From positions 124,001-188,000 of the forward strand of contig JAADHU010000028.1 in NCBI GenBank assembly GCA_013151645.1: a stretch of 64,000 nucleotides of DNA, read 5' to 3'. The notes under the pieces were generated by a model, which saw only the letters and a program-made list of their open reading frames with translations, was not told where the DNA came from and did no database searches. Shown one piece after another: positions 44,753 through 48,807 of the stretch (its first letter is position 1; each line of letters begins with the position of its first letter). Both the position numbers and the translations under genes were made by a program. Source of the DNA: Gammaproteobacteria bacterium. GTDB lineage: Bacteria > Pseudomonadota > Gammaproteobacteria > Steroidobacterales > Woeseiaceae.

Positions 44753-45489
44753 AGGTAATTCCGGCCATCGACCTGCGCGACGGACAGTGCGTCCGGTTAT
44801 TTCAGGGCGACTTTGGTCGACAAACAGGCTATACGCACGAGCCAGTCGAACTCGCGCATCAATACGAGACGATGGGGTTTGATACCTTGCACATTGTCGA
44901 CCTCGATGGTGCCCGAACCGGGCAACCGAAAAATCAGGAAATCGTCTGCGATATTGTCGAAACGACCGGTCTGACCGTCCAGCTCGGCGGCGGACTACGC
45001 TCGGATTCACAGGTCGATCGCTGGTTGAGTGCCGGGCTCGCACGAGTCGTCATCGGCAGTCTCGCGATTACCGAACCGGGCCGGGTGGCTGGCTGGCTGG
45101 CCGATTTCGGAGCCGAGAGAATCGTGCTCGCGCTGGATGTAAACGTAGATACAAGCGGCGTGCCCCGGATTGCGACCCACGGCTGGCAGCGAGGCGGGGC
45201 AATGGCATTGTGGCAATGTATCGAGGATTACCTGGCGATCGGTCTTAAGCACGTGCTTTGCACGGATATCAGTCGCGATGGCGCCATGACGGGACCGAAT
45301 CTTGACTTGTACCGGGAGCTGATCCGTCGCTACCCGGAGATTGGCTTGCAGGCATCGGGCGGTGTTCGCAGCATCAATGACCTCATGGTACTCCGGCAGA
45401 CCGGCGCTCGGGGTGCAATCACCGGTCGCGCACTGCTCGATGGAAAGATAACAACCGAGGAGGTCGCGACATTCCTGCGCGCCGCATAA
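44749..45489 (+). CDS. hisA: ProFAR isomerase (phosphoribosylformimino-AICAR-ribotide isomerase)
   Basis: 246 residues, TIM barrel. Catalytic Asp8 ([18 protein letters not shown]) and the second Asp in [26 protein letters not shown] and [12 protein letters not shown] bind phosphate. It starts with GTG 44749. Its 3' end encodes, in another frame, the ribosome binding site and first codons of hisF; the two genes overlap by 19 bp. Confidence 0.96.
45457..45473 (+). promoter_or_regulatory. Strong ribosome binding site in front of an ATT start codon for hisF
   Basis: GAGGAGGT at 45457-45464 is followed by a 6-nt spacer (CGCGAC) and then ATT at 45471-45473. Spacing is optimal. No ATG, GTG or TTG occurs in the hisF frame between the upstream stop (45378-45380) and GTG 45531. 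This decides the hisF start. Confidence 0.75.
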
Positions 45490-46238
45490 TCCCCTGTCTC
45501 GACGTTCGCGATGGCCAGGTCGTCAAAGGCGTGCAGTTTCGCGATCATCGCGTGGTCGGCGACATACTCGAACTCGCCGAGAACTATTGTCAGGCCGGTG
45601 CCGACGAATTGGTGTTCTATGATATTTCAGCGAGCCCCGATGATCGCACGGTCGACAGAAGCTGGGTCAGTCGTGTCGCGGCGCTGATTGATATTCCTTT
45701 TTGTGTTGCCGGCGGTATTCGCACTGTCGAAGCGGCCGAGGACATCCTGCGCAGAGGCGCGGACAAAATTTCGATCAATTCGCCCGCATTGGAAAATCCA
45801 CCCTTGATTTCAGAACTCGCAAAACGATTTGGATCGCAGTGCGTCGTCTTGGGCGTCGACAGCCGTCGCATCGATGAGACCTGGAAAGTGTACCAATATA
45901 CCGGTGATATACAGCGTATTGCAGCAACTGACCGCCTGACGAAGGAATGGATAGTGGAAGCTCAGCAACGTGGCGCGGGAGAAATTGTACTCAACTGCAT
46001 GAACTCTGACGGAGTACGTAACGGTTATGACATTGAGCAGCTCGCCGGTATTCGGACAAACTGCACAGTGCCGTTGGTTGCATCCGGCGGCGCCGGCTGT
46101 AAGCAGGACTTTGCCGAAGTATTCGAGCGAACCGGTGTCTCTGCTGCGCTTGCCGCCAGCGTATTTCACAGTGGAGACATCACTATTCCTGATTTAAAAT
46201 ATTTCCTGAGACGCTCGGGAATCGAGGTGCGTCTGTGA
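45471..46238 (+). CDS. hisF: Imidazole glycerol phosphate synthase, cyclase subunit, with apparent ATT start
   Basis: Reading from ATT 45471 gives 255 residues beginning (I/M)[22 protein letters not shown], which aligns without gaps to normal HisF N-termini ([12 protein letters not shown]). It carries the catalytic Asp in PCLDV. The next conventional start, GTG 45531, would remove 20 residues including that Asp and the first barrel strand, so it cannot give an active enzyme. Other marks: [45 protein letters not shown] and [11 protein letters not shown]. Either translation really starts at AUU or the base is a sequencing error for ATG. Confidence 0.93.
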
Positions 46239-46946: not shown

Positions 46947-47489
46947 TCAGACCGGCAGCAACATTCGGCTACCATCGATAGCGGTAAATCTCCGATCGCA
47001 ACCCTGCTCGCTGCTGGTTGCGGACGCAAGAGTGACATCACGTACGTATGCAGACGACCCCTGTGGAGCCTGGCCTTCAGAATCAGTTTGAATCTCGATG
47101 TGAAGCCCGTTATTGCAGAATAACAAAGAGCGCTCGCTTGTTCGGCCGGACCAGCCAATAAACTTGCGCTGTTCGACAAGCGGTACTTTACGGCCGTTTT
47201 CCAGCACGCCGAAACACCTTGCATAGCGCGTTGGAATCTCCACCGTGTAACGCGTAACGTCGGCGTGACTGGCTCCGTCCAGCGGAAGCAGACGATCCAG
47301 GAAACTGATCGCACACTTCTTGACGGACACTCGCCGCACCGAATCGTACCTGACGATGTCTTCGAGACCACCCCAGAAGCTGGAAGAGTCACCATCTTGT
47401 GCCGGCATCATTTCCATTTCGAAGGAGTTGAAAAAAGCGGGTTCAATACTCAAATTTCCGATCGGCTCAGCGCTGTTCAATGTAGACAT
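46947..47489 (-). CDS. Malate-synthase-G-like protein lacking the catalytic barrel
   Basis: 180 residues from ATG 47489 (MSTLNSAEPIGNLSIEPAFF), with GGAG 7 nt upstream, 37 nt after aceA. FFNSFEMEMMPAQDGDSSSFWGGLEDIV resembles the malate synthase G N-terminus (...FWAGLDKIV). The rest, from FLDRLLPLDGASHADVTRYTVE to EQRKFIGWSG, LLFCNNGLHIEIQ and RDVTLASA...IDGSRMLL, follows the MSG beta domain (residues about 140-290 there) nearly without gaps. The helical linker and the whole TIM barrel with catalytic residues are missing, and the CED metal motif is changed. It cannot be an active malate synthase; remnant or repurposed domain. Similarity judged by eye. Confidence 0.72.
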   Translation of the reverse strand: MSTLNSAEPIGNLSIEPAFFNSFEMEMMPAQDGDSSSFWGGLEDIVRYDSVRRVSVKKCAISFLDRLLPLDGASHADVTRYTVEIPTRYARCFGVLENGRKVPLVEQRKFIGWSGRTSERSLLFCNNGLHIEIQTDSEGQAPQGSSAYVRDVTLASATSSEQGCDRRFTAIDGSRMLLPV

Positions 47490-47526
47490 CGTTATGCTCC
47501 GTTGCTGGTTCTTCTCTCGTTGGCGC

Positions 47527-48807
47527 TCACGCGACGAATTGCTCTTCTTCGGTACTTCCATCCATGGCCGTCGTCGAAGAGGCACCGGACATGATGGTGT
47601 TCTGGACCGCATCAAAATAGCCGGCGCCGACGAACGATTGATGCTTCGCCGCGCGGAATCCATGCTGTTCGTCCGCGAACTCCTGCTCCTGCAGTTTCGA
47701 ATAGGCGTACATGCCTTCTTCCCGGTAAGCGCGACTTAGCCGAAACATGCTCGAGTTCAGTGCATGCCAGCCTGCCAGCGTGATGAACTGAAACTTGTAG
47801 CCCATCTCGCCGAGATCCTCGCGGAAACTCTTCATCGTCTTGTCGTCCAGGTTGGACTTCCAGTTGAATGACGGTGAGCAGTTGTAGGCCAATAACTGAT
47901 CCGGGAATTCCGCATGAATGGCATCGGCAAATCGCTGTGCCTGCGCAAGGTCCGGCTTTGACGTTTCGCACCAGAGCAAGTCGGCATAAGGCGCGTAGGC
48001 AAGACCGCGTGCAATCGCCTGCTCAAGGCCCGCGTTCGTTCGGTAAAACCCTTCCGCCGTTCGCTCGCCGGTAATGAATGGCCGGTCACGTTCGTCGGCG
48101 TCGGAGGTAATCAGGTTCGCGGCATCGGCGTCGGTACGAGCAACCAGGACAGTGGGCACGTCAAGTACGTCTGCCGCAAGACGTGCGGCGGTCAGCTTGG
48201 CGATCGCTTCCTGGGTCGGGACCAGTACCTTGCCGCCCATATGGCCGCATTTTTTTGCCGACGACAATTGATCCTCGAAATGCACCCCGGCCGCACCGGC
48301 GCGAATCATGCTCTTCATCAACTCGAACGCATTGAGGGTGCCGCCGAAACCTGCTTCGGCGTCCGCGACAATGGGCGGCAACCAATCGGTGTCGTAGTCA
48401 CCGTTGAGCGCGTGAATTTCATCCGTCCGCATCAAGGCGTTGTTGATTCGCTCGACCATTTTTGGCACCGAATCGACCGGATACAGGCTTTGGTCGGGAT
48501 ACATTTCTCCGGCGCTGTTGCCGTCGCCCGCCACCTGCCAGCCGGAGCAATAGATCGCCTTGAGTCCGGCCTCCACTTCCTGGATAGCCTGGTTACCGGT
48601 GAGTGCACCAAGACCGCACAACGGTTTCTCCTGTTGCACCCGACGCCACAATTTCTCGGCGCCAAGACGCGCCAGTGTGTGTTCTACAATCACGGAACCG
48701 CGCAATTTCACCACCTCTTCGGCGGTGTATTCACGCCGTGTCCCTTTCCAGCGCGGACTCTTAGCCCAGTCCGATGTTAGCTTGGCAATCTGTTGCTTAC
48801 GCGTCAT
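47527..48807 (-). CDS. aceA: Isocitrate lyase
   Basis: 426 residues. Splits isocitrate into glyoxylate and succinate in the glyoxylate shunt. The catalytic KKCGH motif is at 185-189 ([19 protein letters not shown]); [40 protein letters not shown] and [11 protein letters not shown] are family hallmarks. It allows growth on acetate and fatty acids. A divergent short-chain-fatty-acid-type regulator lies 133 bp upstream, and a malate-synthase-like fragment follows. Confidence 0.98.

Follow-up and report, generated by a model that had tools for sequence, protein, structure and literature searches.

A malate synthase G alpha/beta domain encoded without its catalytic barrel in an isocitrate lyase operon of Woeseiaceae

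What can a gene do that keeps part of malate synthase G (MSG, GlcB) and stands, without the catalytic barrel, in an isocitrate lyase operon? The question is raised by a stretch of 64,000 nucleotides (the window) from a gammaproteobacterial genome of the family Woeseiaceae, in which a short open reading frame follows the isocitrate lyase gene aceA (Table 1). The frame runs from 47489 to 46947, starts with ATG and is uninterrupted by stops, and its ATG lies 37 bp behind the aceA stop. An earlier sequence-only reading had described an intact frame with its own ribosome-binding site in an isocitrate lyase operon, and this description is correct, the strand being minus. At the end opposite aceA lie the his genes (hisC to hisIE, plus strand), which are transcribed towards the gene. 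A promoter scan returned 2 promoter-like sites where 1.1 were expected, and a terminator scan 2 terminator-like sites where 2.8 were expected.

Table 1. Coordinates of the gene, its segments and its neighbours in the window
Feature	Position	Strand	Basis
Stand-alone MSG alpha/beta-domain gene (mini-MSG), 180 aa	46947..47489	minus	PF20658 and NCBIfam MSG matches
GGAG ribosome-binding site, 7 nt 5' of the mini-MSG ATG	47497..47500	minus	sequence
Residues 1-46, remnant of the MSG N-terminal clasp	47352..47489	minus	matches MSG N-termini; low model confidence, weakly constrained
Residues 47-155, first segment of the discontinuous MSG alpha/beta (insertion) domain	47025..47351	minus	PF20658; VIA alignment
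Residues 166-180, second segment of the MSG alpha/beta domain (RRFTAIDGSRMLLPV)	46950..46994	minus	alignments with MSG and short forms; fold comparison
aceA, encoding isocitrate lyase (426 aa), next gene upstream of mini-MSG	47527..48807	minus	NF011645, 749.9 bits against a cut-off of 562
Divergent regulator, HTH_3 and DUF3612, 519 aa	48941..50500	plus	PF12268 1.4e-76, PF01381 2.4e-9

The product, called mini-MSG here, contains PF20658 (MSG_insertion) as its sole Pfam domain, at residues 48-124 and with 42.8 bits against a cut-off of 24.8. NCBIfam MSG models match residues 41-173 (E 4e-17) and 47-173 (E 1e-19), which bears out the proposed alignment to malate synthase G. The model of the full-length enzyme, TIGR01345, gave 61.8 bits, below its cut-off of 989.15. 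No match to the TIM barrel family PF01274 was found in the frame up to E 1 in the Pfam search, and the claim that the catalytic barrel is missing therefore stands. Automatic annotation would probably label the frame an enzyme fragment, as malate synthase models match it best. In the window's own genome (3.96 Mb, 98% complete), it is the single locus that matches the protein or an MSG model.

Comparison with complete enzymes indicates which parts were kept. Residues 1-46 match the N-terminus of 31 of 40 MSGs (E 0.01 or better). In alignments to the MSGs of relatives, about 100 MSG residues are absent between residues 46 and 47, and residues 166-180 correspond to a strand found in MSG only after a further 50 residues or so, the intervening barrel piece being missing. 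The earlier statement that the MSG N-terminus is joined to the beta domain was thus right about the join, but it overlooked the second half of the domain. An AlphaFold2 model of mini-MSG, built from 24 short forms, had mean pLDDT values by block of 53-63 (residues 1-60), 80-97 (residues 61-130) and 65-87 (residues 131-180). Foldseek matched this model to 1p7t with E 2e-8. VIA-align placed residues 46-180 on residues 141-333 of 4ex4_B (Z 14.5), with the end of the protein at MSG 330-333. A Z of 8 or more was reached by 60 of 994 aligned chains, and malate synthases made up 50 of 50 entries among the matches listed. As the predicted structure matches solved MSGs, the remainder of the protein is, according to the model, the discontinuous alpha/beta domain with its two halves brought together where the barrel piece was lost, and the predicted fold also agrees with the kinship to MSG. 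Mini-MSG therefore resembles MSG (TIGR01345, PF20658 plus PF01274) in both alpha/beta halves and the first 46 clasp residues, and it differs in having neither a TIM barrel match nor the C-terminal domain.

The window genome contained no full MSG in the MSG model search. A complete-looking malate synthase A (MSA) with a full barrel match is encoded by a 551-codon frame on a different contig (C38), and this type A enzyme is the sole malate synthase found in the genome. The ORF beside it presumably encodes an isocitrate dehydrogenase, judging from its sequence. These data bear on the view that mini-MSG is an auxiliary subunit of malate synthase and not of isocitrate lyase, supplying in trans what the domain does in cis in MSG. 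Many carriers of a short form do hold a full-size MSG too, sometimes in the same operon (L034, L104, L115, L120, L121 and L124-L128; contig-cut in L123). In the window genome, however, such a subunit would have to serve a type A enzyme, and malate synthase A has no insertion domain according to the accessible parts of PMC3112382, which makes this role highly improbable.

Similar genes are widespread in the family. The mini-MSG protein was matched in 30 of 60 relatives (its own genome counted), often through full-size MSGs. A search profile made from seven short forms (A1) matched 85 of 107 Woeseiaceae genomes, and the profile search of contigs found 79 loci, with 31 short and 55 long frames. 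Stand-alone short ORFs numbered 45, in 43 of the 107 genomes. One of them, a 61-codon fragment at a contig edge, was left out, and the 44 that were analysed are all stop-free. Seventeen residues are invariant in seven short forms and thirteen in 24. All 24 short forms scanned match PF20658 (E 0.01 or better), and none of them matches the barrel family PF01274 at E 0.01. A clasp remnant was found in none of the other 43 short forms, only the window copy having one. A malate synthase barrel is present in 45 of 45 high-quality Woeseiaceae genomes and in 40 of the 43 genomes with a short form; the exceptions, G112, G114 and G124, are 73-89% complete, and in G124 an MSG start lies at a contig end. 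A degenerate short form, with a weak match and two stops, was seen in G010 (C4:64632-64928, inside L038), where another, unlinked copy is intact.

The sequence-only reading had proposed a search for barrel-less forms next to aceA in relatives, and such forms do exist: in 20 of the 44 loci, aceA stands next to the short form on the same strand, with gaps of up to about 590 bp. A DUF3612 regulator is present at 21 of the 44 loci and mostly accompanies the linkage to aceA. The gene orders are regulator<->aceA-short, as in the window, regulator<->short-aceA-MSG and regulator<->aceA-short-MSG. A second-type isocitrate lyase of 532 aa lies near the short form in L033, and L037 and L113 have the regulator without an intact aceA. 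For 21 of the 44 short forms, no aceA, second-type lyase or regulator was found within the stretch fetched; 10 of these precede an aldehyde dehydrogenase gene, 7 adjoin a cyclophilin and/or AMP-binding (acyl-CoA-synthetase-like) gene, 3 precede an EF-G-like gene, and L117 stands alone. Full-length operons of the order regulator<->aceA-MSG occur at L042, L053, L054, L055 and L059, and in G003, G005 and G008 the order is regulator<->aceA, no MSG domain being found there. Among 15 queried genomes without a short form, aceA was not found at E 1e-50 in 10, including the only congener, G001 (82% complete). The earlier idea of a regulatory or scaffold subunit would fit these neighbourhoods.

Reduced MSGs are not confined to Woeseiaceae. 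A scan of 369 sampled genomes of the class detected a short frame in G385, which led to a second gammaproteobacterial family (f160; 48 genomes, one family of the order of G385). The reduced MSG frames of this family number 28. Ten are mid-size (373-476 codons); the other 18 are short, and a stop interrupts three of these. Frames of 505-679 codons, possibly contig-cut, were left out of the 28. Neighbourhoods were fetched for 21 of the 28, the three stop-bearing frames not among them. The DUF3612 regulator was present at 19 of these 21 loci, a second-type isocitrate lyase at 16, and at least one of the two at all 21. The f160 short forms are without the second half of the alpha/beta domain. Among the f160 pairs listed with unsaturated synonymous sites, dN/dS (w) was 0.09-0.29. 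The f160 forms appear to have been reduced independently, in a similar gene neighbourhood. The mid-size loci are L226-L234 and L236, and 8 of the 9 fetched sit between the DUF3612 regulator and the second-type isocitrate lyase. PF20658 is found in 10 of 10 mid-size proteins and the barrel family in 1 of 10 (E 4e-10); the nine without a recognisable barrel are apparent pseudoenzymes.

The recurrence of the regulator in both families, next to two types of isocitrate lyase, could mean that the domain is its partner, and that it senses a metabolite (glyoxylate or acetyl-CoA) or binds the regulator and thereby tunes the operon. This is quite unlikely, since the regulator also stands next to aceA in G003, G005 and G008, where no MSG domain was found, and the 21 unlinked short forms are found away from it. 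Moreover, a divergent regulator and its own operon are expected to be neighbours anyway.

The origin of the short forms was examined in a tree of 100 columns that combined 40 MSGs with the 44 short forms. In this tree, a full-length operonic MSG is the sister of the window copy (99/80); the end branch of the copy measures 0.47, that of its full-length neighbour 0.13. The remaining short forms make up two clades, which are placed with the same MSG lineage as the window copy, and three changes are needed. A single origin of all Woeseiaceae short forms is not favoured by this tree, but one clade of them was not rejected (AU p 0.398). Other stages of reduction were observed in two genomes. In G027, which has an MSA, the operonic MSG (L056, 92-1364, minus strand) is internally deleted to a 387-codon frame plus a 35-residue C-terminal remnant; about 318 residues have been lost, and the gene is an intermediate stage. 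In G029, a miniature isocitrate lyase with a 93-codon open frame (L037, 8860-9141, minus strand) consists of the N-terminus, one inner strand and the C-terminal STEEEQFVA fused in frame; next to it are the divergent regulator and a short MSG form that has itself diverged. As this lyase has shrunk in frame, in-frame shrinkage can also mean decay.

Selection was considered for the family and for the window copy separately. The 30 closest pairs of short forms had dN/dS values of 0.05-0.21 (Nei-Gojobori). Operonic pairs with 50% identity or more, where computable, gave 0.09-0.30, three listed pairs being saturated, and operonic pairs below 50% identity are too divergent for the method. When operonic pairs with dS under 1.5 were taken, w was under 0.5 in 14 of 31, the rest being distant pairs. 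The closest pairs of short forms thus show purifying selection. The nearest relatives of the window copy are full MSGs of a different genus, and its synonymous sites are saturated. A codon model with six sequences gave w 0.18 for the whole gene on the window branch, with w=1 not rejected (p 0.11); about 0.04 for the domain part, with w=1 rejected (p 0.023); and 0.59 for the clasp remnant, with w=1 not rejected (p 0.53). The domain part is 60% identical to the nearest MSG, and the differences at the three codon positions are 0.28/0.25/0.64. Constraint on the domain is likely from these values, which for the window copy taken alone are suggestive. In neutral simulations, a frame of the length of mini-MSG stayed open in about 2% over the whole branch and in 24-48% when release was recent (0.1-0.05 substitutions per site).

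The same data allow a reading in which the operonic MSG, no longer needed once MSA was available, has been losing residues in frame and has little or no function left. The long end branch of the window copy, the near-neutral N-terminal part, the whole-gene test that did not reject w=1, the shrinkage in G027 and G029, and the stops in one G010 copy and three f160 copies are all in line with such slow decay. It is nevertheless rather unlikely, given that the domain part has kept its identity to MSG and its low w, that both fold halves and the Shine-Dalgarno sequence are retained, and that a frame rarely survives a whole neutral branch, though it survives a recent release far more often. The sequence-only reading had held that the gene is not a simple decaying pseudogene and had offered a very recent deletion product as one explanation. 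For the family, the first claim is sustained by the homologues and by selection, while for the window copy the evidence is suggestive. The second is rejected as a general explanation by the spread of the family and by purifying selection. Because selection is only suggestive for the window copy and its clasp remnant is unique among the 44, this copy may be a lineage-specific, relatively late reduction.

Since barrel-less genes occur in many relatives and are apparently kept by selection, the side domain of MSG probably performs a function of its own, within the glyoxylate pathway or close to it. The preferred explanation, to which we give a probability of roughly 0.5, is that mini-MSG is a folded protein without catalytic activity that assists or regulates the glyoxylate shunt, and that it derives from a redundant MSG that was stripped of its barrel. 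The ancestral operon, as seen in relatives and presumed for the window lineage, would have been regulator<->aceA-MSG. A second malate synthase, here MSA, would have made the operonic MSG redundant, and the barrel and the C-terminal domain would then have been lost, both alpha/beta halves being kept. The domain alone would have been kept by selection, as shown for close pairs of the family and suggested for the window copy, which implies that it does something for which no barrel is needed. From its place in the isocitrate lyase operon, mini-MSG may serve the isocitrate/glyoxylate branch as a regulatory or accessory subunit, and would most likely bind isocitrate lyase or another branch-point partner. 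It may also fill the place that control by AceK has in other members of the family.

AceK (PF06315) was found in 13 of 107 Woeseiaceae genomes, in 0 of the 43 with a short form against 13 of the 64 without (Fisher p 0.0014). In the largest genus of the family, the counts are 0 of 42 against 7 of 31. In G003 and G005, AceK follows aceA, beside which no MSG domain stands, and thus it occupies the same place as the short form in the window. AceK is a different protein from mini-MSG, and functional equivalence of the two is hypothetical. The test tree for AceK contained 62 MSGs (57 of the 73 largest-genus genomes and 5 others) and represented 38 of 43 genomes with a short form and 8 of 13 with AceK, MSG being absent or not fetched in the rest. 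On this tree, about 4 AceK changes and 2 independent pairs (the starred branches) were found, and the sign test was not significant. As there are about 4 changes and only 2 independent pairs, the events are too few to show replacement. In f160, AceK is present in none of 14 genomes that carry the short form and in 2 of 10 with mid-size forms; these two, G494 and G499, have AceK together with a reduced MSG of 474-476 codons. Replacement of AceK was thus not accepted, as the strong raw exclusion is not significant after phylogenetic pairing and G494 and G499 contradict it for the mid-size forms. The exclusion between AceK and the short form in Woeseiaceae is a lead, not a result. A wider proposal is that the MSG alpha/beta domain has been freed more than once (in Woeseiaceae, perhaps twice, and in the second family) as a separable branch-point regulator that works with isocitrate lyase and replaces AceK control of IDH/ICL flux. 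This proposal is speculative and has a low probability.

If it is true that a natural barrel-free version is kept by selection, the domain is useful alone, and mini-MSG would offer a small protein with which the function of the MSG insertion domain may be found. It would also be a case of an enzyme gene cut down to a non-catalytic domain within an operon of central metabolism. In the comparison of malate synthases in PMC3112382, the insertion domain is the feature that distinguishes MSG; in the accessible parts, it is present only in MSG among the isoforms compared. The accessible parts of PMC3112382 and PMC3832036 give no function for it. A search of titles and abstract beginnings in the open-access literature found no description of a stand-alone MSG domain among the matches listed.

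A short model centred on the same MSG alpha/beta domain exists as the subfamily NF006511/PRK08951 'malate synthase' (190 positions). Membership of mini-MSG in this subfamily was rejected, with 53.1 bits against a cut-off of 173. The model is weakly matched by 24 of 24 scanned short forms, and the reduced MSGs of f160 reach 155.9 bits. The cut-off was passed by no protein of the 60 relatives, the 369 sampled genomes of the class or the 48 f160 genomes.

In the his genes beside mini-MSG, the hisF frame (window 45459-45533) extends upstream of the first listed ATG, GTG or TTG at 45531. The residues encoded in this extension are taken by us to belong to HisF, the likely cause being a sequence error or a rare start codon.
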